A stretch of DNA of 44,190 nt from assembly GCA_018816555.1 (NCBI GenBank), contig JAHIVT010000061.1:1-44190 (forward strand), given 5' to 3'. This document shows positions 3,808-44,190 of the stretch, in pieces. A program made the position numbers and the translations under genes. Numbering within the stretch: the first letter of the stretch is position 1; the number at the start of each line of letters is the position of its first letter. The DNA is from Pseudomonadota bacterium. Its GTDB lineage: Bacteria; Desulfobacterota; Desulfobulbia; Desulfobulbales; SURF-16. Under the pieces are notes generated by a model, which was not told the DNA's origin, made no database searches, and saw nothing but the letters and a program-made list of their open reading frames with translations.

Positions 3808-4425
3808 TCAACCTTTCCTTATTGAGCTGACAAGCTGCACGACATTCTGAGAATAAAAACAAAAAATCATGCCCAGCACCACCGCCCCGGTGGTGATCCA
3901 GAAGAGAATGAGATGAAGGGACTGATGCTGATAAAAAAAGAGATCAAGAACAAAAAGAATCATCCCAAGATGAATAAGAGATGAACCAAGACGGACCCAG
4001 TAGCCGCTTTTTTCAAAATGAAGCAACTGACTGCCGCCCACGGCCAGCACGAGCACGACAAGCTGCAGCATGAGCGAGGCGGCAAGCACCAGCACCAACC
4101 CTGTCTTGACCCCGAACCACAGAGAAACCCCTCCCGCAATAAGTGCCAGCACAATGGCAAAACGATTCAGCCAGGCTGCGGGCAGAAGCCGTTTGGGGAC
4201 GCATATTCCCAACAGCAGAATCAGGGCGATGATAAAAGGCGCAATCACACTGTTCATCCGGTTCATATAGGCCAGCTTTTCTGTCGGAGCAAGCTGCTGG
4301 ATCTGGGCGAGCTTGAAGTAAAACATACCATAGATACAGATTGTCGAAATGACAAAGAGCACGGCAACCGTTGACAGCAAGAGATAAAAATCCAGGGAGC
4401 CTTTTTTCTTCATAACCAGCCTCAT
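3808..4425 (-). CDS. Polytopic membrane protein next to ccsA
   Basis: 205 aa with about six predicted membrane helices (near residues 14-36, 58-76, 88-104, 107-130, 145-162 and 170-190) and little outside them. Its start overlaps the ccsA-like stop by 4 bp (ATGA), so translation is coupled. Cytochrome c maturation system II pairs CcsA with CcsB/ResB; this protein is far too short for ResB and shows no ResB motif, so it is an unrecognised partner. A histidine pair in the last helices (YQHQSLHLIL) could contact haem, but that is speculation. No motif gives a function; the operon position suggests a role in haem delivery or c-type cytochrome assembly. Confidence 0.8.
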   Translation of the reverse strand: MRLVMKKKGSLDFYLLLSTVAVLFVISTICIYGMFYFKLAQIQQLAPTEKLAYMNRMNSVIAPFIIALILLLGICVPKRLLPAAWLNRFAIVLALIAGGVSLWFGVKTGLVLVLAASLMLQLVVLVLAVGGSQLLHFEKSGYWVRLGSSLIHLGMILFVLDLFFYQHQSLHLILFWITTGAVVLGMIFCFYSQNVVQLVSSIRKG

Positions 4426-5456
4426 CCAACGAAGGTGTGTTCGCCCGGGAAAAAGAACGAACTGAGGAAAGTAAAGATCATGGCCAGAAAGCAGACAACG
4501 CCGAGAAGAGAGGTAAAATACAACATGGCGGGCTTATTGGCATAAAGCCTCGTATGCAGATAGGTGCTGTAGATTGCCCACATCATGATTGAACTGCAGA
4601 TTTTCGGGTCCCACCACCAGTTCGGCCCCCAGGCTTTGAGCGCCCAAGGGTAGCCCAGCAGCATTCCCAGGGTGAGAAGGAAATAACCGAGTTTGGCAAA
4701 ATCATAGCCCAGTATTTCTATGTCAAGATCACGCTTGACCAGCATAAACACTGAAGCTGCAAAGGTCATGGTAATGCAGGCGTAGGAGAGAAACAGCAGC
4801 GGCGGATGAAACCACATATACTGGGCATTGTAATAAAAAACCATTCTGGGATACAGGCGCATGAAAAATCCGAAGCGTTGCCCGTCCGCCATGTTCGCCG
4901 TAAACCAGGGCGCAACCTCGCCGAAGAATTTGGGCAGCGGCGCCAGGAAGGGATCAGCCTGAAAAAACAGGATGCAAACCTGCAGGGCCAGCAGCAGATG
5001 CAGTGCCGCGCGGAACCGGTGGTTTTTAAGCCGCAGATGGCCGATAAGCGCCATGACGGCATAGCACATGAACCAGAAATAATATTTCTCGTTTTCAAGC
5101 CAGAGGGGCAGCATATACCGGGGAGGTGCATCCAGCCGATATAAGGGTAGGCCATATTCCGCTCCCTGGTTCATGGCGGTGAGCTGTTGATTGAGCATTT
5201 CGGCAAACGGCGGCGGCAGTTCAAGGGCAATCCGCTCATATATCTGATAATGAAACCAGCAGATCCCCAGAAAACCGGCAACGAAAAGCAGAACGACCAC
5301 GGCCAGCAAAAAAGAGGTTGCCCGCGGCAACAGCGGTGCAGACCGGCAGAGGTTGTTCGCTCCGGAAAGGCCGAGCAGGCCGGCAAAGACCAGCAGAACC
5401 AGGAGCAGCCCGTGACCGGTTTGACTGTAAGATGCGAGAGGTAAAAGGAGTTCCAT
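4422..5456 (-). CDS. CcsA/CcmF-type cytochrome c assembly protein
   Basis: 344-aa inner-membrane protein of the haem-handling family (cytochrome c assembly domain). The tryptophan-rich haem-binding loop is seen as WGPNWWWDPK at residues 276-285, and a second family signature, HPPLLFLSY, lies upstream at the start of a helix. Such proteins hold haem at the periplasmic face and help attach it to CXXCH apocytochromes. The ATG at 5456 is used: GCAGGA stands 7 bp before it, whereas the longer frame to 5489 has no ribosome-binding site. The gene is followed with 4-bp overlap by a six-helix protein. A c-type apocytochrome substrate with CVSCH is encoded at 37433 in this window. Confidence 0.85.
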   Translation of the reverse strand: MELLLPLASYSQTGHGLLLVLLVFAGLLGLSGANNLCRSAPLLPRATSFLLAVVVLLFVAGFLGICWFHYQIYERIALELPPPFAEMLNQQLTAMNQGAEYGLPLYRLDAPPRYMLPLWLENEKYYFWFMCYAVMALIGHLRLKNHRFRAALHLLLALQVCILFFQADPFLAPLPKFFGEVAPWFTANMADGQRFGFFMRLYPRMVFYYNAQYMWFHPPLLFLSYACITMTFAASVFMLVKRDLDIEILGYDFAKLGYFLLTLGMLLGYPWALKAWGPNWWWDPKICSSIMMWAIYSTYLHTRLYANKPAMLYFTSLLGVVCFLAMIFTFLSSFFFPGEHTFVG

Positions 5457-5699
5457 ACATTTTCCTGCAAGGGATTTTGCTCTTAACAATTCAATTTACT
5501 GACCATATCGCAACTCTGCTTGAAAGTCCATCCCACTCTTGGGTGGGCCGGCCCGCATCAGTCAGGAGGGGAATCTTTCTCCCGGCCAATTATACGCAAG
5601 GATTGCCGGCAAGGCAGTAATTGCCGTTGTGACTTTGTCCGACTTCCATTATTATCTATACGATGTTTAAGATAATATCCCTGCGGAAACGGAGACAGG

Positions 5700-31978: not shown

Positions 31979-32653
31979 TCAGTTTCTCCGCCAACGACGC
32001 GAAAGGACGGACAGAGCGGCAAGGCCGGAGCCGAGGAAAATAACTGCACCGGGGAGCGGGGTGGGCAGTGGATCACGCACAAGATAACTGGCATACAGGC
32101 TACTGGAGGTATTCACCGTCGGAGAATAGGGAGTATCGGATATGGTCACCCAGGACTCGAAGGCATCTTCGTTCAGATGAACGCTTGCGGCCCGCAGCTG
32201 CAGAAAATTACCGTTCGCATCATACAGCACATACATGCCCACCGCTTCCTGAAACGAACCGAAAGCGATAGTCGGCGACATGCAACGCAAAAGATTTTTC
32301 ACCCCTGCCTCATTGCGGGCATAATAGGATGCAGCATGTGTTGAATAATCGGCTGGCTTTCCCAGGAAATCAACCCCCGCATGCTGGTAAAAAAGCCACA
32401 AATCGTTGGCGTCGGCATAGCGAAAGCCTGAATCAACGAGATTTCCGCTGGAGGCGTTGCTGATAGCGGCATAGGAAAGGCCACGCGTGGCGGAAAGATC
32501 CAGCCATTCCATACCGGTCAGCGGATCAAAGGTGAGAAGGCCATCCCCGCTGCCGGGCACCAGATCCCTGGCAACGAGAGAGCCCCAGGCTGACGCACCT
32601 GGTCCCAAAATTAACGCCGCGACAACCGCCATGAGAAGTGCCGTTTTTTTCAT
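31979..32653 (-). CDS. Secreted protein with PEP-CTERM-like sorting tail
   Basis: 224 aa from the ATG at 32653 (GGAGAGGCAG before it). Signal peptide MKKTALLMAVVAALILGPGASAWG. The middle contains a repeated-looking DxxTGMEWLDLSATRGLSYAAI and DANDLWLFYQHAGVDFLG, as in exported proteins of the PEP-CTERM superfamily of unknown role. The C-terminus reads PLPTPLPGAVIFLGSGLAAL then SRRWRRN: a P-rich motif, helix, and basic end, the exosortase-type sorting signal in its VPLPGAVWLLGSGL variant. It predicts export and processing at the cell surface. No exosortase is in this window. Confidence 0.85.
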   Translation of the reverse strand: MKKTALLMAVVAALILGPGASAWGSLVARDLVPGSGDGLLTFDPLTGMEWLDLSATRGLSYAAISNASSGNLVDSGFRYADANDLWLFYQHAGVDFLGKPADYSTHAASYYARNEAGVKNLLRCMSPTIAFGSFQEAVGMYVLYDANGNFLQLRAASVHLNEDAFESWVTISDTPYSPTVNTSSSLYASYLVRDPLPTPLPGAVIFLGSGLAALSVLSRRWRRN

Positions 32654-33077
32654 CTGCCTCTCCAACATCATTATTATTGAAGGATATACATGCAAAACAT
32701 CAGAGAAAACCGCAAAAAATAATCATATACCGCGTTTGTGCACCCCCAAGGGCATTGGCGCGGCAATCACCTAAAATCCTTAGATTATTTATTACGATAG
32801 CCTAATCAGATCAGCAAGGGCAATGATAAACAGCACAAAGCAGCAAAAAAATGCGGCATGTGATTGCCGGGAAAGCATGAAAATCAATAAAAAAAAGAGC
32901 CTCTTGCAATTGGAAAACAAGACCTTTGAAGAAGAAAAGTTTAATTAATCCGATTTAGCAACCAGCTCCCCATACTGCTTTTACTGGTTACAGCTTTACA
33001 TTTACAACTGGGTAGGATAGATTTTTTTATCAGCCCTTTCCATTTCCCCCGCAGATTAACCGACAAAAAATCAAAAC
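32654..33077. other. Gene-free region, about 420 bp
   Basis: AT-rich between the PEP-CTERM-like gene and the plus-strand ABC operon; it should contain promoters for both. No sigma-54 -24/-12 pair was found. A 41-codon open frame at 32823-32948 begins close to AAGGG but the spacing is only 2 bp, so I do not call it. Confidence 0.4.
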
Positions 33078-33149
33078 ATGAGCTTATTCTGCAAAAAGCT
33101 GCAACCACAAGCCAAATCGAGCAACATGGCCGGGGTCTTGCTGCCATGA
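33078..33149 (+). CDS. Possible 23-codon leader ORF
   Basis: Reads MSLFCKKLQPQAKSSNMAGV then LLP and stops in the ATGA that starts the next gene, the same coupling used twice more in this operon. It has no clear ribosome-binding site. It could be a translational coupler or chance. Confidence 0.25.
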   Translation: MSLFCKKLQPQAKSSNMAGVLLP

Positions 33150-33481
33150 GCGGCGGACGCTGGTTTCTGCTGCAATCCGGGCTGCTTTTTGCCGCCCTGC
33201 TTGCCTTACTGCTGCTCTGCAGCCAGCGGGTCCATCGTGCGGAAACGGATCAGTTGCCGGCCCGCCTGCAGCTGATCCACACTTTGAAACTGACCGATTT
33301 CGCCCTGTGGAGCGAAGCGCGCTACACCCGCCATCCCTCCCAGGCAGACTGGTTTGCGCCGTTTCAGGATTTTCCCTCCTCGTTCGAACATTTCCCGGCC
33401 GGCTCACTGATGGGCCCCCTGCCGGCCCGCCCTGCAACGCGGATTGAATTCCACCGCCAACCCTCCGGGACAAAACCATGA
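33146..33481 (+). CDS. Small anchored periplasmic protein of the ABC operon
   Basis: 111 aa: a short N-terminus (MSGGRWFLLQS), one helix at about 8-26, then a soluble 85-residue part, probably in the periplasm (RLQLIHTLKLTDFALWSEARYTRH, FPSSFEHFPAG). I recognise no family. The stop overlaps the permease start (ATGA at 33478), so it is the first full gene of a four-gene operon and likely helps the transporter. The ribosome-binding site is weak; translation may be coupled to the short ORF before it. Confidence 0.7.
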   Translation: MSGGRWFLLQSGLLFAALLALLLLCSQRVHRAETDQLPARLQLIHTLKLTDFALWSEARYTRHPSQADWFAPFQDFPSSFEHFPAGSLMGPLPARPATRIEFHRQPSGTKP

Positions 33482-34638
33482 TGCGCCAACTGAAAATTCT
33501 CGACTTCGCCATTGCTTCCCTGCGGCGTCGTAAAGGCAAAAGCCTGTCAATTGTTCTGGTCTTTGCCTTCACCGTTGCGGCACTCAGCTCGGTGCTGCTG
33601 CTGACCCACGCACTGCGCAGTGAAGCCACCCAGCTGCTCGCCGGCGCACCTGACCTGGTTGTGCAACGGGTTATTGCCGGCCGACATGATCTGATCCCTG
33701 CCAACTATCAGGAACAAATTGAAAAAATTTCCGGAGTCAAGGGAGTAACGCCGCGGTTGTGGGGCTATTACTTCGACTCGCTCACCGGCTCCAATTTCAC
33801 CCTGCTGGGCATAGGCGACGATGCGCCGCAGGGATTGACCCTGCTCACCGGCCGGTTGCCGAAAGGCCCTGATGAATGCGCCATCGGCAGCGGGGTCGCC
33901 GAATTCCGGGGGGTAACCATTGGGGATGACCTGTATCTCATCGATCAGGATAATCTCGGGGTCGGTTTTACCATTGTCGGCCTTTTCTCCTCCCAGTCCG
34001 ACCTCCTCACCCACGACCTGATCATCCTGGAAAAGGAAAGCCTGCGGAAATTCTTCGCCTTTCCGCCCGGCCTGAACACGGATCTGGCCATCGAGGTTTA
34101 CAACCCCCAGGAGGTGGATATGGTGGCACAGAAGATCAAACGGGAATTTCCTGCTGCAAGACCGATCACCCATGGCGAGATCGTCCGCACCTATGACGCG
34201 GTTTTCAACTGGCGCAGCGGCATGCTGCTGTCAATCTTCAGTGTGGCACTGGTCGCCTTCTGTATTCTGGCCTGGGACAAGGCGACCGGGCTCAGCGCCG
34301 AGGAACGGCGGGAGATCGGCGTGCTCAAGGCCCTGGGCTGGGATACCGGGGACGTGCTGCTGCTGAAATTCTGGGAAGGGATGGTCATCGCCCTCACCGC
34401 CTTCCTGATGGGCATGACCGCGGCCCTGATTCATGTCTTCTGGCTCGGCGCGCCGCTGCTGGCCATGGTGGTCAAGGGCTGGTCAGTGCTCTTCCCTGAG
34501 TTCCGGCTTGTCCCCTACATCGACCTGCAGCAGATTTTCATCATCGCCTTCCTGACCATTGTTCCCTATCTGGTGAGTACCGTCATCCCCTGCTGGCGCG
34601 CCGCGGTCACCGACCCGGACAGCGTTATGCGGGGTTAA
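33478..34638 (+). CDS. FtsX/MacB-type ABC permease
   Basis: 386 aa. Helix at about 20-40 (SLSIVLVFAFTVAALSSVLLLTHAL), a large periplasmic domain (about 45-245, LLTGRLPKGPDECAIGSGVAE, TIVGLFSSQSDL), then three helices (about 250-270, 295-325, 350-375) with the FtsX signature AEERREIGVLKALGW (about 277-291). This is the MacB/LolC type, used to export or extract lipoproteins or peptides and not for import. It couples to the ATPase 10 bp downstream. The translation start overlaps the previous gene. Confidence 0.92.
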   Translation: MMRQLKILDFAIASLRRRKGKSLSIVLVFAFTVAALSSVLLLTHALRSEATQLLAGAPDLVVQRVIAGRHDLIPANYQEQIEKISGVKGVTPRLWGYYFDSLTGSNFTLLGIGDDAPQGLTLLTGRLPKGPDECAIGSGVAEFRGVTIGDDLYLIDQDNLGVGFTIVGLFSSQSDLLTHDLIILEKESLRKFFAFPPGLNTDLAIEVYNPQEVDMVAQKIKREFPAARPITHGEIVRTYDAVFNWRSGMLLSIFSVALVAFCILAWDKATGLSAEERREIGVLKALGWDTGDVLLLKFWEGMVIALTAFLMGMTAALIHVFWLGAPLLAMVVKGWSVLFPEFRLVPYIDLQQIFIIAFLTIVPYLVSTVIPCWRAAVTDPDSVMRG

Positions 34639-34648
34639 GGAGGCTGCC

Positions 34649-35332
34649 ATGATCAGACTGGAACAGGTTGGCAAAATCTACCATCCGGGCAAACCCGATC
34701 AGGTTATCGCCATTGATGACGTGTCATTGGAAATACCCCGGGGCGGCGTGACCGTGCTCAAAGGGCCCAGCGGCTCGGGCAAGACCTCCCTGCTTGCCAT
34801 GATCGGCTGCATGTCGCGGCCGACCCATGGCCAGATCGTCCTTGACGGCCGGGAGATCTCCCGTCTGCCGGAACGCTTTCTCACTGATATCCGCCGCCGC
34901 ACCTTCGGTTTTATCTTCCAGCAGTTCCATCTGCTGGAAGATCTTACAGTGGAGGAAAACGTGCTGCTGCCCCTCTACCCCCAGGCAGTGGGCTACCCCG
35001 AGATGAAGCGACGGGTGGCCCAGGTACTTGCCCCCCTGGGACTGGGGGCCAAACAGCGCCGCAAGGCCGGGCAACTCTCCGGCGGTGAGCAGCAGCGGGT
35101 GGCGGTGGCCAGGGCCCTGATCGGCGACCCGGAGATCATCATCGCCGATGAACCCACCGCCCACCTGGACAGCATCCTGGCTGCAGAACTGCTGGTGCTG
35201 CTCGGGGGGCTGCTGTCCGCCGGCCGCACCCTGATCATTGCCACCCACGATCCCCTTGTTTTCAACCACCAGATGGTCACCCAACTGGTATCCATGCGGG
35301 ACGGTCGGGTGCTGGAGGAGCAGACAGCGTGA
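34649..35332 (+). CDS. ABC transporter ATPase, LolD/MacB type
   Basis: 227-aa cytosolic ATPase. Walker A GPSGSGKTS (39-47), Q loop at FQQFHLLEDLTVEENV, signature LSGGEQQRVA (143-152), Walker B IIIADEPTAHLD and H-loop ATHD. It is of the short class that pairs with FtsX-like permeases, as the neighbour shows. The stop overlaps the next gene (GTGA). AAGGAGG stands before the ATG. Confidence 0.95.
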   Translation: MIRLEQVGKIYHPGKPDQVIAIDDVSLEIPRGGVTVLKGPSGSGKTSLLAMIGCMSRPTHGQIVLDGREISRLPERFLTDIRRRTFGFIFQQFHLLEDLTVEENVLLPLYPQAVGYPEMKRRVAQVLAPLGLGAKQRRKAGQLSGGEQQRVAVARALIGDPEIIIADEPTAHLDSILAAELLVLLGGLLSAGRTLIIATHDPLVFNHQMVTQLVSMRDGRVLEEQTA

Positions 35333-36342
35333 TCCTGCATCCGGGCATCCTCGCCCTGCTGCTCGGGGCCCTGCTGGTGATCATGCTGATGTCCTATGCC
35401 TGTGTCATCGGCTTTGGCGTGCTGCGCCACTGGGACCGCTCCAGTTATTCCCAGCAGCAACTCGAACTGGAACGGCGCACCTACCTGATCTCCACCATGG
35501 TCAACTACGCCCTCGGCTTCCAGGCCCTGTCACTGCTGCTGTTCATCTACACGATGGACAGCCTGCACCCGCTGTTCATCGGAGCCATGTGCGCCACCGG
35601 CACGCTGAATGCCAACCCGGTGGGCTGGAACGTCCTGCTGGTCAAAATACCCGTCTTCTTCCTGGCCTGGCTGTGGGTGATCGTCAACCACTACGACCTG
35701 CAGGTGGAGGATTCCCCCCTGGTGCGACCAAAATACGCCGCCCTGTTTGCGCTGCTGCCGCTGGTCGTGCTCGATGGCTGGTGGCAGTTCCGTTATTTTA
35801 CGGGCCTTGACCCGCAGATCATCACCTCCTGCTGCGGTTCGCTGTTCAGCCAGTCGGGAGAAGGGATAGCCAGCAGTCTGGCCGCTCTGCCGGTCGTGCC
35901 CATGGTCTGGGTTTTCTACCTCTGGCTGCTGCTGCTGCTCATTTTTGTCCTGCTGGCATTAAAATTCAACTCCTCCGCCCTGCGCTATCTGCTGGCCCTG
36001 GCCGCCCTCCTGCTGCTGCCGGTGGGCCTTGCTTCCGTTATCTCCTTCATCTCGATCTACATCTACGAGATGCCGACCCACCACTGCCCTTTTGACCTGC
36101 TGCAGGGAGGTTATCACTTCATCGGCTACCCCCTTTATTTGGCCCTGTTCGGCGCCATTCTCTGCGGCCTGGTGCCCGGCCTCATGCGGTTGCTGCAGAT
36201 TTTTGCCCCGGGCCTGGGGCAGATTTTCGTGGGAAGGGAGCGGTTCTGGCTGGCCGGCACACTGCTCTTCCTACTGCTCCTGCTCGGCCTGGTCAGCCGG
36301 CCGCTGCTGTTTGGTCCCTTTACCCTGCAGGCCTACCTGTAA
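35329..36342 (+). CDS. Polytopic membrane protein with HHCPF motif
   Basis: 337 aa with a GTG start overlapping the ATPase stop by 4 bp. About eight membrane helices. A loop between two of the late helices holds MPTHHCPFDLLQ (H251, H252, C253), a cluster that could bind a metal or haem. CC at about 169-170 (TSCCGSLF) is another potential site. The C-terminus ends GLGQIFVGRERFWLAGTLLF. I do not recognise the family; the operon position makes it part of the ABC export system, perhaps the component that senses or delivers the cargo. High Leu content is typical of such genes. Confidence 0.82.
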   Translation: MILHPGILALLLGALLVIMLMSYACVIGFGVLRHWDRSSYSQQQLELERRTYLISTMVNYALGFQALSLLLFIYTMDSLHPLFIGAMCATGTLNANPVGWNVLLVKIPVFFLAWLWVIVNHYDLQVEDSPLVRPKYAALFALLPLVVLDGWWQFRYFTGLDPQIITSCCGSLFSQSGEGIASSLAALPVVPMVWVFYLWLLLLLIFVLLALKFNSSALRYLLALAALLLLPVGLASVISFISIYIYEMPTHHCPFDLLQGGYHFIGYPLYLALFGAILCGLVPGLMRLLQIFAPGLGQIFVGRERFWLAGTLLFLLLLLGLVSRPLLFGPFTLQAYL

Positions 36343-36860
36343 TGGCTTGCCCATTTAAGAAATGAGCGATTACTATCCTCCATCTGCTGCTTTCCGACAG
36401 ATAAAAATATTTAAAGAATTATCTGTTACCTTACTATTTCAAGTAGTGTTTAATTTTCATAGATGCTACAATTTGTTAAGAAATTCACTCCCGAACTTTT
36501 CCGGCTGGAGCAGATAAGATTCTCACAATAATTTCCTCAATGAAATCAAAATGATAACCTGCTCATCTTCCATAGATCGCAACAAAAAAAACAGAATCAA
36601 CCCATTTAACAACTGCTAACCTTGACAAAAGCTTCTAGTATTAATAATAATTACTAAACAATTTATATTTTATTCCCTCATTCTCTCTTGTAACAAGAGC
36701 TGTGCTTCACCTATGAGGAGGAAGCAGACGTATCCGAGATCTGAACAAGAGCAATTAACAGAACACTTTTTTCTTCCTCTTCTGTCTTATTCTTCTTGAT
36801 CAAATAGTCTGCATTGCCAGCAATGCCAATCAATAACTATTCAACCGTTCGGAGGAGAAA
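36343..36860. other. 518-bp regulatory gap before the Sco1/MCO cluster
   Basis: No supported gene. It is AT-rich (about 30% GC in parts), much lower than the flanking genes. Apart from the candidate promoter at 36622-36651 I see a long stretch of Py-rich sequence (36770-36800). There is no terminator after the upstream operon. Confidence 0.5.
36622..36651 (+). promoter_or_regulatory. Candidate promoter of the Sco1/MCO cluster
   Basis: TTGACA (36622-36627), 18-bp spacer, AATAAT (36646-36651). The -35 is perfect and the -10 is five of six. It would give a leader of about 200 nt before the Sco1 ATG. Confidence 0.45.
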
Positions 36861-37436
36861 ATGACGAATTTCCTTGGACCATTAACATTTCTGCTGCTTT
36901 TTACTGCGGGCCTTTTCTGCCCAGGCCAGAGTGCCGCGGAGGCTAAATACCAGCGTAGCGAGGTGTCGATTTCTGTGCCGGATGTGGTGCTGATCAACCA
37001 GGACAATGAAAAGATACCGCTCAGGTCCCTGCTCCAGACCGAAGAGTCCGTTGTCATCGATTTCGTTTACGCCTCCTGCACCACGATCTGCCCGATCCTT
37101 TCCGCCGGGTATGCCAACCTGCAAGGTAAACTTGGCCCGGAAAACCACAACATCCTCCTGGTGTCAATTACCATTGATCCGGAAAACGACACACCGGCTG
37201 TTATGAAGAAACACTTGGAGCGCTACCAGGCCCGCCCGGGATGGATTTTTCTGACCGGCAGCCGCGCAGACATCAACACCGTCATGGCCGCCTTTGATGC
37301 TTATTTCCCAAACAAAATGTCGCACCAGCCACTGAACTTCATCCGGACCACTGAAAAAGGGAAATGGATCCGGATCAACGGAATGATCGGCGGCAACGAT
37401 CTGTTAAATGAAATCAAGAAAGCGAGGATGCAATGA
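36861..37436 (+). CDS. Sco1/SenC-type copper chaperone
   Basis: 191 aa with an N-terminal signal peptide or anchor (LTFLLLFTAGLF). Thioredoxin-like fold with the Sco copper site: C73 and C77 in YASCTTICPIL, and H155 in NKMSHQPLNF. VIDFVYASC and SITIDPENDTPAVMKKH are family marks. Such proteins deliver copper to cytochrome oxidase CuA or to other copper enzymes. Here no CuA oxidase is near; the multicopper oxidase 2.6 kb downstream is the obvious client. CGGAGGAG precedes the ATG. Its stop overlaps the next gene (ATGA). Confidence 0.93.
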   Translation: MTNFLGPLTFLLLFTAGLFCPGQSAAEAKYQRSEVSISVPDVVLINQDNEKIPLRSLLQTEESVVIDFVYASCTTICPILSAGYANLQGKLGPENHNILLVSITIDPENDTPAVMKKHLERYQARPGWIFLTGSRADINTVMAAFDAYFPNKMSHQPLNFIRTTEKGKWIRINGMIGGNDLLNEIKKARMQ

Positions 37437-39148
37437 AAACAATGAGAGAAGAAAGAAAAAACGGGATGCGGCGATGGGCATTGCTTGTCATGCTGCTGTT
37501 GTCATTTCTTGCAACCGGGGCCATTGCCGCCCAGGCAGAGCCAGAACTTGCAACCGCCGAAAGGCTACGTCTCGGTCAACGGATGTATCAGGAAGGCATC
37601 CTGCCCTCCGGCGAACCCATGCAGGCCTATGTCAATGGGGACGTACCGGTACAGGGGACATCATTTACCTGTGTCAGCTGCCATCTGCACAGCGGCATTG
37701 GTTCCTTTGAGGCAAATATTGCCGCCTCGCCCGTTAACGGCCGAATCCTCTTTCAGCCGCGCAAACCTTATATAAAGGGATTCGAGTATGTTCCAGCTTA
37801 CCACAAATACGCCTCGCATTTCCCGGAGAGACCGGCCTATACAGATGATACTCTTGCAGAGCTCATCACTGCAGGGATAGATCCCACCGGCCGCTCCGTG
37901 GTGAAGGTAATGCCGCGTTACGATATCAACGATGATGACATAGCGATCCTCATCGATTATCTGAAGAGCCTGTCTGATCAATTGTCCCCCGGGGTCAGCG
38001 ACACTGAGATCAAATTCGCCACAGTGATTGCCGGGGAAGTGCCCGAAGCATCCGTTGAGGCAATGATCACGCCCCTGCAGTTCCACATCAGCCGCAAAAA
38101 CAGCCTTGCCCTGGCCTACAAAAACCACCCGCGCATGGCGCGAATGGCATACAACATGATAGGCCCGGAGATTGCCGGCAAAACCTTTACCTTGTCCCGC
38201 TGGCTCCTGAAGGGGGCGCCCGATACCTGGCGTGCCCAGCTGGAAGAATACTACCGGGCTGAACCTGTCTTTGCCCTTCTGGGCGGCATCACCGATGGCG
38301 ATTGGGAGCCGGTACACCGGTTCTGCGAAGATAACCGCATACCCGATCTCTTCCCCATCGTCGACTACCCCGTCATCTCCTCATCTGACTGGTATACCCT
38401 CTATTTTTCCCGGGGAATACGCCAGGAAGGTGAAGCCGGAGCCCGCTATCTACACAGCATGTATGAACTTTTTGCCGGCCAGCCACTCGTTCAGATCACT
38501 CGTGATAGTCGCAGGGGACATGCCCTGGCGGATGGCTTCCACGAAAGCTGGGGCAACACCGGACACCCGGCTGTAATTGATATTATCCTGAAAGAAGGGG
38601 AACCGCTCACGCCGGAACAGTTGCAACAGATAATTTCCGAACACAAACCAGCCGTACTGGTTATCTGGGATGACGAAGCCCTTCTTGCCGCAATGGACGG
38701 ACTGACGGTCAGCAAGGACAGCCCCAAGTTCATCCTCGCTTCCGGTACTTATATGGGGGAAGGCCTGTGGAAGATTCCCGAACAGCTGCGGGACATGCTC
38801 TTTGTCACTTACCCATACCGCCTGCCCCAGGATGAGGTGCGTTTCGATCCCACTATTAAATCAGTGCTCCAGGGCAAACCCCTCGACACCACTGACCCGC
38901 GGATTATCCGGCAGGCATGTATCATCGGCGAGGTTCTGGATGATGCTCTGGTGAAAATGCGCGGCGAATTCTACCGTGACTACTTTTTCGACACCATCGG
39001 TATGATGGCGGACGCCTCCTTTCCGCTCTACGAGCGTCTCAGTTTCGGACACGGTCAGCGCTACGCCTCAAAGGGGTGCTATATCGTCCAACTTGGCAAA
39101 GGCGTGAAACCGCAACTCGAGCGTCTCAGCGAATGGGTAACCCATTGA
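37433..39148 (+). CDS. Monohaem cytochrome c fused to a type-I periplasmic-binding fold
   Basis: 571 aa. A signal peptide (WALLVMLLLSFLATGAIAAQA) is followed by a class-I-like cytochrome c of about 140 residues with CVSCH (C80, C83, H84) and a probable sixth ligand M160 in VVKVMPRYD. From about 190 to the end the chain resembles a leucine/branched-chain-type periplasmic binding protein (VFALLGGITDGDWEPVH, LFPIVDYPVISSSDWY, FAGQPLVQITRDSRRGHALADGF, PAVLVIWDDEALL). Such domains bind ligands or act as sensors. There is no transporter gene next door, so a haem-linked sensor or electron carrier is more likely than uptake. The Sco1 gene precedes it with 4-bp overlap. Confidence 0.88.
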   Translation: MKTMREERKNGMRRWALLVMLLLSFLATGAIAAQAEPELATAERLRLGQRMYQEGILPSGEPMQAYVNGDVPVQGTSFTCVSCHLHSGIGSFEANIAASPVNGRILFQPRKPYIKGFEYVPAYHKYASHFPERPAYTDDTLAELITAGIDPTGRSVVKVMPRYDINDDDIAILIDYLKSLSDQLSPGVSDTEIKFATVIAGEVPEASVEAMITPLQFHISRKNSLALAYKNHPRMARMAYNMIGPEIAGKTFTLSRWLLKGAPDTWRAQLEEYYRAEPVFALLGGITDGDWEPVHRFCEDNRIPDLFPIVDYPVISSSDWYTLYFSRGIRQEGEAGARYLHSMYELFAGQPLVQITRDSRRGHALADGFHESWGNTGHPAVIDIILKEGEPLTPEQLQQIISEHKPAVLVIWDDEALLAAMDGLTVSKDSPKFILASGTYMGEGLWKIPEQLRDMLFVTYPYRLPQDEVRFDPTIKSVLQGKPLDTTDPRIIRQACIIGEVLDDALVKMRGEFYRDYFFDTIGMMADASFPLYERLSFGHGQRYASKGCYIVQLGKGVKPQLERLSEWVTH

Positions 39149-39165
39149 TGGGGGAGGATGAAAGA

Positions 39166-39519
39166 ATGAAGAAATTACACCTGTTACTGCTCATTGCCTT
39201 CTTGTCGCTGCCCCTTGCCGCTCTTGCCGAAGATGATGGGGAAAAGATTTTCATTGTCCAGCAATACAGCTATGACCCTGGCGAAAGCGACGGCAACAGG
39301 GAAATCGGCCTGTCACTCTGCGGCACCCGCTGCAACGCCCTGTCCGGCAACTTTGCCAGCTACCTCAAACCCGGCGGCTGGCGCTTGATCAGGAGCGCCA
39401 GCAACCAGGAAGTAGCTCTCGAGCTTGACTACCCCTTTATTAAGGGCCGGTGCATCTGCGTCGGCGATGAATACAGGGTGAAATGGTATGACCCGGTTTG
39501 TACGGAAAACAAACCATAA
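39166..39519 (+). CDS. Small secreted protein with five cysteines
   Basis: 117 aa: signal peptide (LHLLLLIAFLSLPLAALA, cut near residue 21), then a compact domain with C52, C56 (LCGTRCN), C96, C98 (GRCICVG) and C112. CxxxC and CxC pairs suggest a metal site or disulfides. GGGGAGG lies 8 bp before the ATG at 39166; a longer frame from 39076 overlaps the previous gene and is not supported. It lies in the Sco1-cytochrome-MCO cluster, so a copper-handling or cytochrome-docking role is inferred. Not a recognised family. Confidence 0.75.
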   Translation: MKKLHLLLLIAFLSLPLAALAEDDGEKIFIVQQYSYDPGESDGNREIGLSLCGTRCNALSGNFASYLKPGGWRLIRSASNQEVALELDYPFIKGRCICVGDEYRVKWYDPVCTENKP

Positions 39520-39591
39520 AAAAAGGATTTTTCCCCGGCGCTTTGTATCTGATTTGAGGCGCCGGATAGAAACACATAAAGGTAAACAAGC

Positions 39592-39608
39592 GTCAACATC
39601 ATGTTGAC
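39592..39608. promoter_or_regulatory. 17-bp palindrome upstream of the small secreted protein gene
   Basis: GTCAACAT-C-ATGTTGAC, 8-bp perfect arms with a one-base centre, 34 bp before the ATG at 39642. This suits a repressor site. A 7-bp GC hairpin (CCGGCGC/GCGCCGG, 39535-39565) stands just before and could attenuate readthrough. Confidence 0.5.
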
Positions 39609-39641
39609 AGGGTAGTCCCATAAAACAGGAGGGAAACTGTT

Positions 39642-39923
39642 ATGAAAAAAATATCGATGTTGGCATCCGCAATTCTGATGTCTTGGATGTTGATTGCCCC
39701 GGCCATGGGGCAACAGCAGACACCGCCGGAAGAGCCGGGCAACCCAGCAAACGGCGAGGCCTCGGTCAGCCAGACTCAGGTGGATATATACAAGCAGCGT
39801 GAAGAGGCACGCCAGCGGCGCGATGAATTGCTGAAGATGAGGTCACAGACCATTGATGCAGCCGGGCAGCAGGACAGCACAGCTCAGCCGCAGGATAGCC
39901 CCACTCAGCCACCGGCCAATTAA
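39642..39923 (+). CDS. Small secreted Gln/Pro-rich protein
   Basis: 93 aa: signal peptide (MLASAILMSWMLIAPAMG, cut near residue 23), then a charged coiled stretch (YKQREEARQRRDELLKMR) between Gln/Pro-rich ends. No cysteine, no recognised domain. AGGAGG precedes the ATG with 8-bp spacing. It stands between the Cys-rich gene and the oxidase in the same direction, so it probably belongs to the exported module, perhaps as a spacer or scaffold. The function is unknown. Confidence 0.72.
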   Translation: MKKISMLASAILMSWMLIAPAMGQQQTPPEEPGNPANGEASVSQTQVDIYKQREEARQRRDELLKMRSQTIDAAGQQDSTAQPQDSPTQPPAN

Positions 39924-40021
39924 CCCTCTCATCAACAGGGAGAAAAGCAAGCACTCCGTTGCTGCGGCCAGCCCGCTGACAATATTTTGCTGTAAAAAGC
40001 CTAAATCAAGGAGGCTATACT

Positions 40022-43000
40022 ATGAATAGACTCACATTACTACGATCATTTCTGGCCATGGCCATGGCCGCGGCGGCTCTATTCTGGGACGCCGGGACAG
40101 GCCAGGCTTACCTGAAGCCTGATCAGACACCGATCGGGCCGGGGGACACCCCTGACTACCTGACAACACCTAACTGGGCCTACACCCCTCCCCTGCGCAA
40201 ATTTGTCGATTCGCTTCCCGGCCTGGGTGCTGCCAACCAAAACAACCTGAACCAGTTTATCGCGGTCGCCCACCCGGATACCGTTACCTATCCCGGCTCC
40301 GATTATTATGAAATCGAACTGCGTCAATTTACGGAAAAAATGCATTCCGACCTCAACCCGACAACCTTGCGGGGATACGTGCAGGTCAACAACGGCACGG
40401 ACATCGGGACCTGCGGCAATGCCTGTACCGCCGCCGACAATACAGTGACGCCTGATCCGGGGCCGCATTTTTTGGGCCCCATGATCATCTCCCAGAAAGA
40501 CCGGCCGGTGCGCATCAAGTTCATCAACAAACTGCCGACCGGAGCTGGTGGTGATTTGTTCGTTCCGGTGGATCTCTCCCAGATGGGATCAGGCCCTTTT
40601 GAAATTGATTACGATCCGGTGACCAAGGATCCAATGGGCCTGACCACCGGCAATTTCACCCAGAACCGGGCCACCATCCATCTCCATGGCGGCATCAGCC
40701 CATGGATCAGTGACGGGACACCCCATCAATGGATTACCCCCGAGGGCGAGAACACCGAATATCCCAAGGGCGTCAGCGCCAAGAACGTTCCCGACATGCC
40801 GGACCCTGGTCCTGGCGCACAGACCTTCTACTATTCCAACCAGCAAAGCGCACGGCTGATGTTCTTCCATGACCATGCCTGGGGCATTACCCGCTTAAAC
40901 GTCTATATCGGGGAGGCTGCAGGGTATATGATCAGGGACGACACGGAGCAGGCCTTAATCAACGCCGGCATTATCCCCTCCGGCGCCTACGAGATCCCAC
41001 TCGTTCTCCAGGACAAAACCTACGTTGACCCGGACACAATTACCAGCACCGATCCAACCTGGGCCTGGGGAACAAACCCCTGGACAGGAGCACCGGGAGC
41101 ACCGATGACACCGGTACAGGGTGATCTCTGGTGGCCTCATATCTATATGCCTGCCCAAAACCCCTATGACATGACCGGAATTGCACCGATGGGCCGCTGG
41201 GCCTATGGTCCCTGGTTCTGGCCGCCTACCACCGGTCTGCCCTACGGTCCGGTGGCCAACCCGTACTACAGTGCGGACTGTGACCCGGCCGATGCCAACA
41301 CCCCCGGCAGCTTCGCAGGCTTCTGCCAGGCACCAGAGATTCCCGGAACACCCAACCCCTCCTGGGGCGCTGAGGCCTTCCTGGATACCCCGGTTATCAA
41401 TGGAACGGCTTATCCTTACCTGGAGGTTGAACCAAGATCGTACCGTTTGCGAATTCTCAATGCAGCCCACGACCGGTTCTTCAACCTGCAGCTTTATGAG
41501 GCAGATAGCGCAGTACCGGCCGGCTGCCCGACCTGTGCTGCTGATACGGAAGTAAAAATGGTTCCGGCCTATGATTATTCCGGCGATGCTACCTGGCCGA
41601 GCACCTGGCCGACGGACGGCAGACCCGGCGGCGCACCTGACTGGAAAACAGCCGGCCCCGATTTCATCCAGATCGGCACCGATGGAGGCTTCCTGCCGCA
41701 ACCGGTAGTGCTGCAGAATCAGCCGGTTACCTGGAATATGGACGTAACCACCTTTAATGCCGGCAACGTTGACAACGGCACGGTGATTGTCGGCCCGGCG
41801 GAACGGGTGGATGTGATTGTCGATTTCTCCCAGTTTGCCGGTAAAACGCTGATTCTTTACAATGACGCTCCCGCGCCATGGCCTGCTCTTGATCCGCATT
41901 ACGATTATTTTACCGGTAATCCGGACATGACCGAAGCGGGTGGTGCTCCCACGACGCTGGTGGGTATGGGCCCTAACACCCGCACCATCATGCAGATCAG
42001 AGTTGCTGCCGGTGCAGGAGGAGCGCCATTTAATCTGGCCGCGCTACAGGAGGCTTTTGATCCTGCCGGTGGTGGACCCGGTGTCTTTCAACTGGGGCAG
42101 AAACCCATAATAGTAGGCCAGAGTGACTACAATGCAACCTATAACATGACTTTCCCGAAAACCTATCCGAACTGGGGTATTTCGAGGATTCAGGACAGTT
42201 CCATCAGCTTCAAGGACGTAAACGGTGCTGTCCAGACAGTTGCCATGAATCCCAAGGCAATCCAGGATGAAATGGGTGAAACCTTTGACGACTACGGACG
42301 TTCAAGTGCCAAAATCGGTCTTGAGATGGCGCAGACATCTGCGGGCATCCAGACCTTTATTGTCCAGAACTATGTTGACCCATCAACGGAAATTCTTAAT
42401 GAAGACGAGGTTCAGATCTGGAAGATTACCCACAATGGCGTTGACACCCATCCGCTTCACTTTCATCTTTATGATGTGCAGCTGATCAACCGGGTGGGCT
42501 GGGATGGCTTTATCAGACTACCTGACCTCAATGAGCTGGGCTGGAAGGACACGGTCAGAATCAGCCCGCTGGAGGACACCATCGTTGCCTTACGGCCGAT
42601 CGCGCCTTCCCTGCCATTTGGTGTTCCGGAAAGCATCCGTCCATTAAATCCAATGGAGCCCATCGGCTCCAGCAACGGCTTCACCAACCTTGACCCGCTG
42701 ACCGGACAGCCTCTCAACCCGCCGACCATCAATGAGATGTTCAACTTCGACTGGGAATACGTCATTCACTGCCATATTCTCAGCCATGAAGAAAACGACA
42801 TGATGCGCCCGGTTATTTTTAACTATATAGAGGTGCTGCCCGAAGCACCGACAAATCTTCTAGCTTCAAGCGGCAACACCCAGGTAGACCTCACCTGGAA
42901 CGACACTACTCCGATTGACTACTCAGACCTCAATACCTTTGGGGACAGTGCCAATGAAATCGGCTTTATCATTGAACGCTCACCCGCCGGAGGAAATTCC

Positions 43001-44065
43001 TTTACTCAAATAGGAACAGCCTTGGCCAATGCGATGAGTTACAGCGATGCCACCACTGTACCGGATACCAGCTACGATTACCGGGTCAGTGCCTATAATG
43101 CCGCCGGCAGTTCACCATTTTCCAACACGGCGACAGGCAACGCTACTCCTCCTCCCCCGGCAACAGGGGCCACTCTAACGGCAAATCCCGCCTCACCACA
43201 AACGTCCGGAACTGCGATCACCTTTACCGCCGGCGGTGCTGGCGGCAGCGGCACCTATGAATACAGGTTCAGCGTAAACGGCCCTGGAACAAATAACTTG
43301 CTGACTGAGGTACAGGCTTATTCTGCCGGCAACACCTTCCTGTGGACTCCGGCTCTGGCCGATATCGGTAACACCACCGTTACCGTCGATGTCCGCAGCG
43401 CCGGTTCAACGGCTGCCTCTGAGGCCGCAGCAAGTCTGATTTACGGCGTTATTCCTCCTCCGGCCACAGGGGCCACTCTAACGGCAAATCCGCCCTCTCC
43501 GCAGGTAACCGGAACCCAGGTAACCTTTACCGCCGGCGGTACTGGCGGCAGCGGTACCTATGAATACAGGTTCAGCGTAAACGGCCCTGGAACAAATAAC
43601 GTGCTGACTGAGGTACAGGCTTATTCTGCCAGCAACACCTTCCTGTGGACTCCGGCTCTGGCCGATATTGGGGCTGATACCACCGTGGTTGTCGATGTGC
43701 GGAGCGTCGGTTCAACGGCTAACTCTGAGGCCACAGCAAATCTGGCTTACAGAGCTGTTCCCCCACCAGCAACGGGTGTTTCTCTGTCGGTAAGCCCAGC
43801 CTCACCGGTAAAGGCAGGTAGGCGGATTCGCTTCACCGCGAACGGCTCCGGCGGCAGCGGCAGCTATGAATATCTGTTCAGGATGAGGGGCCCAAGCACG
43901 AACAACGCATGGGTTGTTGTCCAGGGCTACTCAGCCAGCGGGACATTCGTGTGGAACACGATGGCGGCTGATAGAGGATTCACCAGAATTAATGTAAGGG
44001 TGCGGAGCGTAGGCTCTATCCGCAACTCTGAAGCACAGAGCACTATACGCTACCAAATCCGCTAA
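40022..44065 (+). CDS. Giant multicopper oxidase with FN3 and tandem repeat tail
   Basis: 1347 aa, about twice a normal laccase. Signal peptide (SFLAMAMAAAALFW, cut near GQA at 28). Copper ligands: H220/H222 (IHLHGG), H283/H285 (FHDHAWG), H810/H813/H815 (HPLHFH), H916-C917-H918, H922 and M927 (HCHILSHEENDMM). All type 1, 2 and 3 ligands are present, with methionine as the axial type 1 ligand. GPAERVDVIVDFSQF and MGPNTRTIMQIRV lie in the second cupredoxin region. Residues about 939-1046 form an FN3 domain; 1047-1347 are three repeats. The arrangement resembles the OmpB/MofA-like group, implicated in metal oxidation or Fe(III) reduction; this assignment is inference. AAGGAGG precedes the ATG. 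Confidence 0.93.
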   Translation: MNRLTLLRSFLAMAMAAAALFWDAGTGQAYLKPDQTPIGPGDTPDYLTTPNWAYTPPLRKFVDSLPGLGAANQNNLNQFIAVAHPDTVTYPGSDYYEIELRQFTEKMHSDLNPTTLRGYVQVNNGTDIGTCGNACTAADNTVTPDPGPHFLGPMIISQKDRPVRIKFINKLPTGAGGDLFVPVDLSQMGSGPFEIDYDPVTKDPMGLTTGNFTQNRATIHLHGGISPWISDGTPHQWITPEGENTEYPKGVSAKNVPDMPDPGPGAQTFYYSNQQSARLMFFHDHAWGITRLNVYIGEAAGYMIRDDTEQALINAGIIPSGAYEIPLVLQDKTYVDPDTITSTDPTWAWGTNPWTGAPGAPMTPVQGDLWWPHIYMPAQNPYDMTGIAPMGRWAYGPWFWPPTTGLPYGPVANPYYSADCDPADANTPGSFAGFCQAPEIPGTPNPSWGAEAFLDTPVINGTAYPYLEVEPRSYRLRILNAAHDRFFNLQLYEADSAVPAGCPTCAADTEVKMVPAYDYSGDATWPSTWPTDGRPGGAPDWKTAGPDFIQIGTDGGFLPQPVVLQNQPVTWNMDVTTFNAGNVDNGTVIVGPAERVDVIVDFSQFAGKTLILYNDAPAPWPALDPHYDYFTGNPDMTEAGGAPTTLVGMGPNTRTIMQIRVAAGAGGAPFNLAALQEAFDPAGGGPGVFQLGQKPIIVGQSDYNATYNMTFPKTYPNWGISRIQDSSISFKDVNGAVQTVAMNPKAIQDEMGETFDDYGRSSAKIGLEMAQTSAGIQTFIVQNYVDPSTEILNEDEVQIWKITHNGVDTHPLHFHLYDVQLINRVGWDGFIRLPDLNELGWKDTVRISPLEDTIVALRPIAPSLPFGVPESIRPLNPMEPIGSSNGFTNLDPLTGQPLNPPTINEMFNFDWEYVIHCHILSHEENDMMRPVIFNYIEVLPEAPTNLLASSGNTQVDLTWNDTTPIDYSDLNTFGDSANEIGFIIERSPAGGNSFTQIGTALANAMSYSDATTVPDTSYDYRVSAYNAAGSSPFSNTATGNATPPPPATGATLTANPASPQTSGTAITFTAGGAGGSGTYEYRFSVNGPGTNNLLTEVQAYSAGNTFLWTPALADIGNTTVTVDVRSAGSTAASEAAASLIYGVIPPPATGATLTANPPSPQVTGTQVTFTAGGTGGSGTYEYRFSVNGPGTNNVLTEVQAYSASNTFLWTPALADIGADTTVVVDVRSVGSTANSEATANLAYRAVPPPATGVSLSVSPASPVKAGRRIRFTANGSGGSGSYEYLFRMRGPSTNNAWVVVQGYSASGTFVWNTMAADRGFTRINVRVRSVGSIRNSEAQSTIRYQIR
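43160..44065 (+). repeat. Three tandem ~303-bp repeats in the oxidase gene
   Basis: Units at 43160-43462, 43463-43768 and 43769-44065. The first two are almost identical across long stretches (for example from 43223 and 43526, offset 303 bp), the third has diverged. Each codes for about 101 residues opening with ATGATL or ATGVSL and holding GGSGTYEYRFSVNGPGT (GGSGSYEYLFRMRGPST in the third). The near identity indicates recent duplication. Confidence 0.93.
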
Positions 44066-44131
44066 TTGGAGGGGAACAACAAAATTGAAAAAACCGACTA
44101 AAAATTTAGAATAATATTAATCATTAGACGC

Positions 44132-44178
44132 AAACAGGAACGGCAGCCCCGCTATGCAGGAGGCTGCCGTTCCTGTTT
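44132..44178 (+). terminator. Terminator of the Sco1/MCO cluster
   Basis: Perfect 17-bp arms at 44132-44148 and 44162-44178 (AAACAGGAACGGCAGCC and its complement) with a 13-nt loop, 66 bp after the oxidase stop. The end of the stem reads TGTTT. Confidence 0.88.
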
Positions 44179-44190
44179 ATGAGGCTTCCC

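Follow-up and report, generated by a model that had tools for sequence, protein, structure and literature searches.

In Geobacter sulfurreducens the ompB gene has a mofC homologue and a SCO1/SenC gene in its vicinity, and mofABC genes are found in Leptothrix; MofC-like proteins carry cytochrome and periplasmic-binding domains, and OmpB is described with a fibronectin type III domain and EXXE Fe(III)-binding motifs (PMC5566968). A five-gene mof operon of Rubrivivax sp. A210 comprises the oxidase, MofB, MofC, a metallochaperone and an exported unknown protein (PMC8218464), and the G. sulfurreducens cluster likewise lacks the MofB that is missing here (PMC5566968). The multicopper oxidase CutO of Rhodobacter protects from copper also without O2, and the small CxxxC protein CutF, encoded before CutO, is essential for its activity (PMC8456105). 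Here we describe five consecutive genes for a Sco1 protein, a MofC-like cytochrome, two small exported proteins and a multicopper oxidase of 1347 residues, and an ATP-binding cassette (ABC) transporter gene set upstream of them. Both lie in the window, which is the entire contig C110 (JAHIVT010000061.1, 44190 bases) of a 4.9 Mb bacterial genome (GCA_018816555.1; 97% complete, 4% contaminated). We read the locus as an oxidase cluster of the ompB/mofABC kind behind a copper-delivery unit, with surface or extracellular metal redox as its most likely reaction, and consider this reading probable, if only just.

The oxidase cluster

The cluster is made up as follows:

36861..37436, plus strand: Sco1/SenC copper chaperone (Pfam SCO1-SenC, 8.2e-19)
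37433..39148, plus strand: MofC-like protein with a one-heme cytochrome c domain (one CxxCH) and a type I periplasmic-binding-like domain (Peripla_BP_6, 1.5e-6)
39166..39519, plus strand: 117-residue exported protein with CxxxC and CxC, four invariant cysteines
39642..39923, plus strand: 93-residue exported, Cys-free, charged protein just upstream of the oxidase, a conserved partner
40022..44065, plus strand: multicopper oxidase gene, 1347 residues (Pfam Cu-oxidase_2, 1.3e-9)
40022..42829, plus strand: oxidase core, about residues 1-936, with all expected copper ligands
42830..44065, plus strand: C-terminal tail of the oxidase, a weak fn3-like stretch and three repeats of about 101 residues

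An earlier reading of this DNA, made from the sequence only, had reported five plus-strand open reading frames in a row and a 4-bp overlap of the Sco and cytochrome genes (36861-37436 and 37433-39148), and both are present; the gaps after the MofC-like gene measure 17, 122 and 98 bp. All five proteins start with a hydrophobic N-terminus (by eye) and are therefore likely exported. The earlier wording "secreted or anchored" is thus likely right as to export but finds no support as to anchoring: a regular expression found no lipobox in the first 40 residues of the five proteins.

The five genes are a cluster of the described ompB/mofABC plus Sco kind because ompB with mofC and SCO1, and the five-gene mof operon, are described precedents (PMC5566968, PMC8218464). 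The sequence-only reading had proposed a Sco-cytochrome-oxidase module with kinship to OmpB and MofA. All three components are indeed found (SCO1-SenC, MofC-like, Cu-oxidase_2), and the composition agrees with the printed descriptions; the "cytochrome-PBP fusion" of that reading is, judged by its sequence, MofC-like. With the G. sulfurreducens ompB cluster (GSU1394, GSU1397, GSU1398) the window shares the oxidase, the mofC homologue and SCO1/SenC, whereas the gene for the Cys-rich 117-residue protein and the ABC set are additions of the window; OmpB and GSU1395 were compared by description only. The mofABC genes of Leptothrix discophora and the A210 operon have the oxidase and MofC in common with the window, and A210 also the metallochaperone and the exported unknown protein. 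However, no mofB (peptidyl-prolyl isomerase) gene is present in the window cluster, and manganese oxidisers there stand against an anaerobe-like genome here.

The CxxxC motif (C73, C77) and H155 of the Sco protein are invariant in 11 of 11 aligned sequences, and the host genome holds one true Sco; the hits C16 and C88 were rejected as further Sco1 proteins (25 and 22 bits as SCO1 against 89 and 95 bits as Redoxin or AhpC-TSA). A profile search for the heme-copper oxidase subunits I and II (COX1 and COX2) gave no match in the genome assembly, with COX2 and COX1 matched in 9/14 and 8/14 genomes of the positive control. The claimed absence of CuA oxidase subunits is thus confirmed for this assembly, and a CuA oxidase was rejected as the Sco client. 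With dsrA detected at 585 bits (cut-off 393) and no heme-copper oxidase found, the host is sulfur-metabolising and anaerobe-like, in line with the "probable anaerobe" proposed before.

In the MofC-like protein both Pfam domains (cytochrome and binding) score below their cut-offs (Peripla_BP_6 28.6 bits, cut-off 31.7), and C80, C83, H84 and M160-P161 are invariant in 12/12 sequences. We take the CxxCH and the later invariant Met-Pro of the cytochrome part to suggest a His/Met heme. Two loci (L028:7411-10972 in G161 and L029:8972-12537 in G096) carry a divergent MofC-like gene (32-33% identity) that adjoins a ten-CxxCH gene instead of an oxidase. In Cupriavidus metallidurans CH34 (L208) a MofC homologue (30.6%) is located downstream of a 2570-residue frame with cadherin-like and beta-helix domains, an arrangement similar to that in Paraburkholderia (L209); the idea that the C. 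metallidurans MofC serves another giant oxidase was dropped, the frame having no multicopper-oxidase family hit.

Twelve residues of the oxidase (H220, H222, H283, H285, H810, H813, H815, H916, C917, H918, H922 and M927), which we take to be the type 1, 2 and 3 copper ligands, are invariant in 13/13 aligned oxidases. The order of the copper-site motifs is that of CotA laccase, also the nearest relative by sequence in the PDB (9e-36), and NCBIfam PhsA scores 135 bits, below its cut-off of 950. The window oxidase shares the copper-site motifs of CotA/PhsA-type laccases but differs from them by large insertions in the core and by the tail. Aligned cores are 54-70% identical to it, and its match to homologues from Geobacter, Geomonas, Trichlorobacter and other Geobacteraceae, as the records are titled, is 50-61%. 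The tail, announced as 400 residues long, has about 411. Its fn3 match is weak (E 0.095, 13.4 bits, cut-off 25), and the three repeats were delimited by eye. In the nearest relatives, G080, G101 and G021, the match to the oxidase stops near residue 1034-1036, so that the three repeats are not common to them.

These features bear on the possibility that the oxidase acts as proposed for OmpB, i.e. on the outer surface, where electron transfer to Fe(III)/Mn(IV) oxides would depend on it, with MofC feeding in periplasmic electrons. We consider this rather unlikely. Type 1 copper with a Met ligand usually has a high potential, which is awkward for the reduction of Fe(III) oxides. The EXXE motifs cited for OmpB occur twice in the window oxidase against a mean of 1.48 in shuffled sequences and were discarded as evidence, being at chance level, and the kinship to OmpB is judged by the description of the cluster, not by the OmpB sequence. 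The shared cluster composition speaks for such a role, as does the transcript of an ompB homologue in Geobacter soli, which was 5.7-/4.2-fold higher with FH/ITO than with FC, in the abbreviations of that paper (PMC6013743).

The 117-residue protein has four cysteines (C52, C56, C96, C98) that are invariant in 8/8 sequences. Its structure model has a mean pLDDT of 78.6 with a well-predicted centre, and a fold search against the PDB gave no match (best E 1.5). A Pfam scan assigned no family to this or to the 93-residue protein. The system of Rhodobacter capsulatus resembles the window in that a gene for a small CxxxC protein, CutF, precedes that of a multicopper oxidase, but the 117-residue protein has no DUF2946 match and CutO is CueO-like (PMC8456105). 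A short, Cys-free, highly charged gene product with a hydrophobic start is encoded directly before the oxidase in 17/20 MofC-linked loci (the window plus 19 loci, without G021), in 8/49 unlinked loci (49 of the 54 unlinked rows of the tree described below) and at 25/950 random positions. The thresholds of this test were chosen after earlier inspection of the loci, and it misses L125, L134 and L155. Motifs like KREEARxRRDEMLKMR recur among the closer of these proteins. The hypothetical gene GSU1395 has been reported together with ompB among lowered transcripts (PMC10599522) and is likewise listed in PMC11934962.

When the species-genome collection was scanned by pattern, at least 460 of 590 candidate oxidase stretches were confirmed, and our flank counts refer to the best 80 of these loci. 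MofC is found upstream of the oxidase in 19 of them, 17 of which also have Sco; the 117-residue family is present in 7, the 93-residue family (by hidden Markov model, HMM) in 7 and the complete set in 6. Seven relatives have all five genes (G021, L124, L125, L127, L151, L163 and L190), L124 and L125 being the order relatives G101 and G080; within the genus, MofC and a close oxidase occur in 2 of 5 other genomes drawn, again G080 and G101. The distribution of MofC was mapped on a tree of 88 oxidase cores, a quick calculation without site mixtures or bootstraps. Rows were called linked if a MofC frame ended at most 4 kb upstream and not linked if none was found in more than 2.5 kb of upstream sequence; L020, L068, L069 and L071-L073 were labelled by hand. 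This gave 21 linked, 54 unlinked and 13 undecidable rows (contig end). All linked rows fall into one group of 39 (SH-aLRT 94), the remainder of which is 14 unlinked and 4 undecidable rows, linkage changes 8 times on the tree compared with a shuffled mean of 19, and 9 of the 10 rows around and including the window are linked. The five-gene set is therefore typical of one oxidase branch, not of the whole family. The sequence-only reading had asked for joint recurrence of the five genes and had named oxidase homologues without Sco and cytochrome genes as the counter-case: the set recurs in the seven relatives and the nearest group is linked (9/10), but in the wide family most homologues have no MofC next door (54 against 21 linked).

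A plasmid search with the oxidase returned 77 records, every one below 60% identity and none spanning 80%. In L155, L159, L163, L164, L167, L173, L182, L191 and L202 an FKBP-type isomerase gene, likely the MofB counterpart, precedes Sco or MofC (Pfam-confirmed in L163 and L155, in both before Sco; the others by eye). In a Nitrospirae metagenome-assembled genome the ABC set and the Sco-MofC-oxidase cluster are separated by the gene of a second, smaller multicopper oxidase of 664 residues (L182:3978-5969).

The close full cluster L151 comes from a metagenome-assembled genome titled Desulfuromonas sp. isolate MnB_14, Mn-Desulfuromonas-1. Together with the composition of MofA, MofC and Sco this title favours a MofA-like reaction, in which Mn(II) or Fe(II) would be oxidised outside the cell and MofC would take up the electrons. 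Such a reaction needs an oxidant, in a host that has dsrA and in which heme-copper oxidase was not found, and we regard it as improbable.

The upstream ABC set and copper delivery

The sequence-only reading did not see the set of genes at 33146-36342, which we assign to one unit with the five genes:

33146..33481, plus strand: first gene of the set, for a 111-residue protein with a single hydrophobic segment at its N-terminus, no Pfam family
33478..34638, plus strand: FtsX/MacB/LolCE-type ABC permease (MacB_PCD 2.4e-10, FtsX 8.4e-6)
34649..35332, plus strand: ABC ATPase, FtsE/LolD/MacB-like (NCBIfam FtsE 200 bits, LolD 179 bits, both below cut-off)
35329..36342, plus strand: 337-residue polytopic membrane protein, no Pfam family

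The 111-residue family is present in 11 of 24 loci from the order and adjoins the permease in 10 of these 11 (in L072 it is about 2 kb off). Against NCBIfam lolCE the permease reaches 64 bits, far below the cut-off of 362. In the 337-residue protein C88, C168 and C169 are invariant (alignment of eight sequences, two partial), and its HHCPF motif precedes a D in the window and a C in each of the other five full-length sequences; the AlphaFold model is mostly helical and of low confidence (mean pLDDT 67.9).

In the order relatives G050, G078, G166, G189, G186 and G176 the ABC set stands beside Sco-MofC, in G033, G084, G013 and G096 it lies about 5 kb or less from an oxidase without MofC, and in G021 it forms one cluster with MofC and the oxidase. 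Parts of the set occur in the flanks of 9 of the best 80 oxidase loci, six of them MofC-linked, with many contigs cut. We defined ABC type 1 by a score of at least 230 bits for the 337-residue protein. By this definition it is present in 23 of 192 other sampled genomes of the order, in all 12 with full-length MofC and in 10 of the 12 with a close oxidase, and 5 of the 12 full-MofC genomes also have a close oxidase. Fisher tests, kinship ignored, yield p = 4e-13 for ABC-MofC, 4e-9 for ABC-oxidase and 2e-4 for MofC-oxidase. The 12 do not include G007, G079 and G129, which have MofC fragments only and two of which hold the ABC type. A second sample covers 394 other genomes of the phylum and has some genomes in common with the order sample. 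In it the 337-residue family in the wide sense is found in 58, among them 10 of 12 full-MofC genomes (12/16 if 4 genomes with partial MofC are added) and 20 of 31 oxidase genomes; MofC and the oxidase coincide here in 8 of the 12.

A gene of the NosL family is present near the ABC set or the oxidase in 7 of the 24 order loci (one Pfam-confirmed) and in further loci. In G172 a CusB gene adjoins the oxidase (Pfam), and in both G172 and G023 one is found next to NosL and the ABC set (HMM). NosL and NosDFY deliver copper for nitrous oxide reductase, and the NosL-family gene near the ABC set of relatives suggests copper delivery here by analogy. The window is distinguished by a permease of the FtsX/MacB type and by the 337-residue membrane protein, and membership in NosDFY was rejected: in addition to the permease type, no NosD hit was obtained among the scanned proteins and NosL is located elsewhere. 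The one NosL copy found in the host genome (G000) is on contig C26. At this locus (L205:9454-14368) NosL, a TlpA-like redoxin and an ABC ATPase diverge from a 384-residue one-CxxCH protein and a second FtsX-type permease, and proteins like the latter two occur near the NosL-ABC set also in L118, L121 and L122.

The linkage of NosL or ABC transporters to such oxidases or to copper was not found in titles and abstract openings of the open-licence literature, a search that proves little; within this scope we met no description of the ABC linkage or of the conserved small partners. These elements allow for a far-reaching proposal, which we put forward as tentative and less likely than not. The NosL-linked FtsX/MacB-type transporter and the 337-residue Cys/His protein might be an undescribed copper-loading machine for oxidases of the OmpB/MofA class, in which Sco, MofC and the CxxxC/CxC protein would form a redox copper relay, the 93-residue protein would be the export partner of the oxidase, and MofC would serve maturation, not respiration.

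The last point can be considered separately. MofC may be either an electron partner or a maturation factor. As the latter it would reduce Cu(II) or regenerate the Sco thiols, and its binding domain would hold a copper chelate; we judge this possible but doubtful. The order sample leans this way because MofC accompanies the ABC set even where the oxidase is missing: all 12 full-MofC genomes have the ABC type and only 5 a close oxidase, and G050, G078 and G189 have MofC-Sco-ABC units but no close oxidase. The overlap of the MofC and Sco genes by 4 bp is in agreement with it. The phylum sample does not separate the two roles, as the share of MofC genomes with an oxidase (8/12) nearly equals that with the 337-residue family (10/12); moreover, no ligand of the binding domain is known, and in G161 and G096 the MofC-like gene adjoins the ten-CxxCH gene instead.

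The CusB and NosL neighbours in some relatives (CusA was seen by eye only) also fit a role in defence against copper or oxygen, in which the oxidase would turn Cu(I) into Cu(II) or burn stray O2 with electrons from MofC, with the ABC set, NosL and Cus as copper-stress partners. We know of no counterpart of MofC in CueO systems, and the size and the tail of the oxidase are unlike CueO. The lack of any Pfam match of the 117-residue protein, hence of one to DUF2946/CutF, likewise argues against defence, whereas its CxxxC motif and the absence of a heme-copper oxidase match in the host genome argue for it. CutO, which protects Rhodobacter without O2 and needs the CxxxC protein CutF, provides a precedent (PMC8456105). 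On balance we hold defence to be a rather doubtful alternative.

The history of the Sco gene, too, had been left out by the sequence-only reading. At the DNA level the ABC-Sco stretch of the window aligns with that of G062 (ABC set 90.5%, Sco 79%), and the ABC set aligns also with G080 (87%); both genomes are of the same genus as the window. Among the loci compared, the nearest Sco protein is the ABC-linked one of G080 (70% over 189 residues), followed by G062 (63% over 141), and the Sco proteins of the MofC clusters in G021, G080 and G101 are 58-60% identical to that of the window. G062 has ABC-Sco and no match for MofC or the oxidase, and G080 has ABC-Sco on one contig and the Sco-MofC-117-93-oxidase cluster on another. 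We infer from this comparison that in the window the block from MofC to the oxidase is joined behind the ABC-Sco unit.

Transcription signals and flanking genes

Two features delimit the five genes:

36622..36651, plus strand: promoter-like site before Sco, TTGACA-18-AATAAT, consensus match only (11/12)
44132..44178 (about), plus strand: 3' hairpin, possible terminator (-37.7 kcal/mol, z -6.7)

It is plausible that the five genes form one transcription unit. The promoter-like site is the best in 32600-44190, a region in which the scan found 11 sites compared with 7.1 expected by chance, and it ends 210 bp upstream of Sco. From there to the start of the oxidase gene no further plus-strand site was listed except an overlapping one at 36641, so that the internal promoter before each gene that had been named as a counter-case does not appear directly upstream of the later genes. 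The strong terminator announced by the sequence-only reading is in part supported: the hairpin behind the oxidase gene is strong and likely a terminator, but it has no long T-run behind it and is missing from the terminator-scan list. The contig stops 125 bp past the end of the oxidase gene.

Farther upstream the minus strand of the window encodes two membrane proteins at 3808-5489, one of them similar to CcsA/ResC-type cytochrome c maturation proteins (by eye), and at 31979-32695 a protein with what we take, by eye, to be a PEP-CTERM-like sorting tail, which would suggest an exosortase system.

Proposed function

We assume that the ABC set and Sco form a unit, also standing alone in the genus, that handles copper across and outside the inner membrane, and that NosL would contribute to this delivery unit in trans; MofC, the 117- and 93-residue proteins and the oxidase would be its client block. 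Sco would load copper into the oxidase in the periplasm, possibly aided by the CxxxC/CxC protein, and the 93-residue protein would specifically assist the oxidase in folding or export. Once loaded, the enzyme would reach the outer membrane or pass through it, and its variable tail may bind a surface there. The MofC-like cytochrome presumably swaps electrons either with the oxidase or with the copper destined for it. The reaction would most likely be a surface or extracellular redox conversion of a metal (Fe, Mn or Cu), in line with the hypothesis of the sequence-only reading; the step from copper loading to this reaction would follow the named precedents only. The order of copper transfer, the location and the electron partner are thus our assumptions.

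Several observations weigh against this picture. The outer-membrane location, the loading with copper and the electron transfer are predictions. The 518-bp gap between the ABC set and Sco and the promoter-like site in front of Sco suggest two transcripts, and in G080 the Sco-MofC-oxidase cluster carries its own Sco, apart from the ABC-Sco unit. MofC and the ABC set occur apart from the oxidase, 7 of the 12 full-MofC genomes of the order having no close oxidase, and 54 of the 75 decidable tree rows have no MofC nearby. One of the three genomes with MofC fragments only, G129, is without the ABC type, the line for which was drawn after the scores had been seen, and shared ancestry is not accounted for in the Fisher tests. 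The sole NosL copy found lies outside the window on another contig. Finally, a search for FKBP (MofB) gave no hit among the eight proteins of 33146-44065 that were scanned together, with the ATPase scanned only separately and the rest of the genome unsearched.

The linkage described here bears on the copper supply of oxidases of the OmpB/MofA type and on their role in cells without oxygen respiration, and it names the ABC set, Sco and the 117- and 93-residue proteins as candidates for the loading machinery. The oxidase family is wide: by record titles, the best 80 loci span Thermodesulfobacteriota, Nitrospirota, Chloroflexota, Actinomycetota, Bacillota and several archaea. The example of CutF and CutO indicates that a small CxxxC protein can be essential to a multicopper oxidase, which for its part can be of importance also in the absence of oxygen (PMC8456105).

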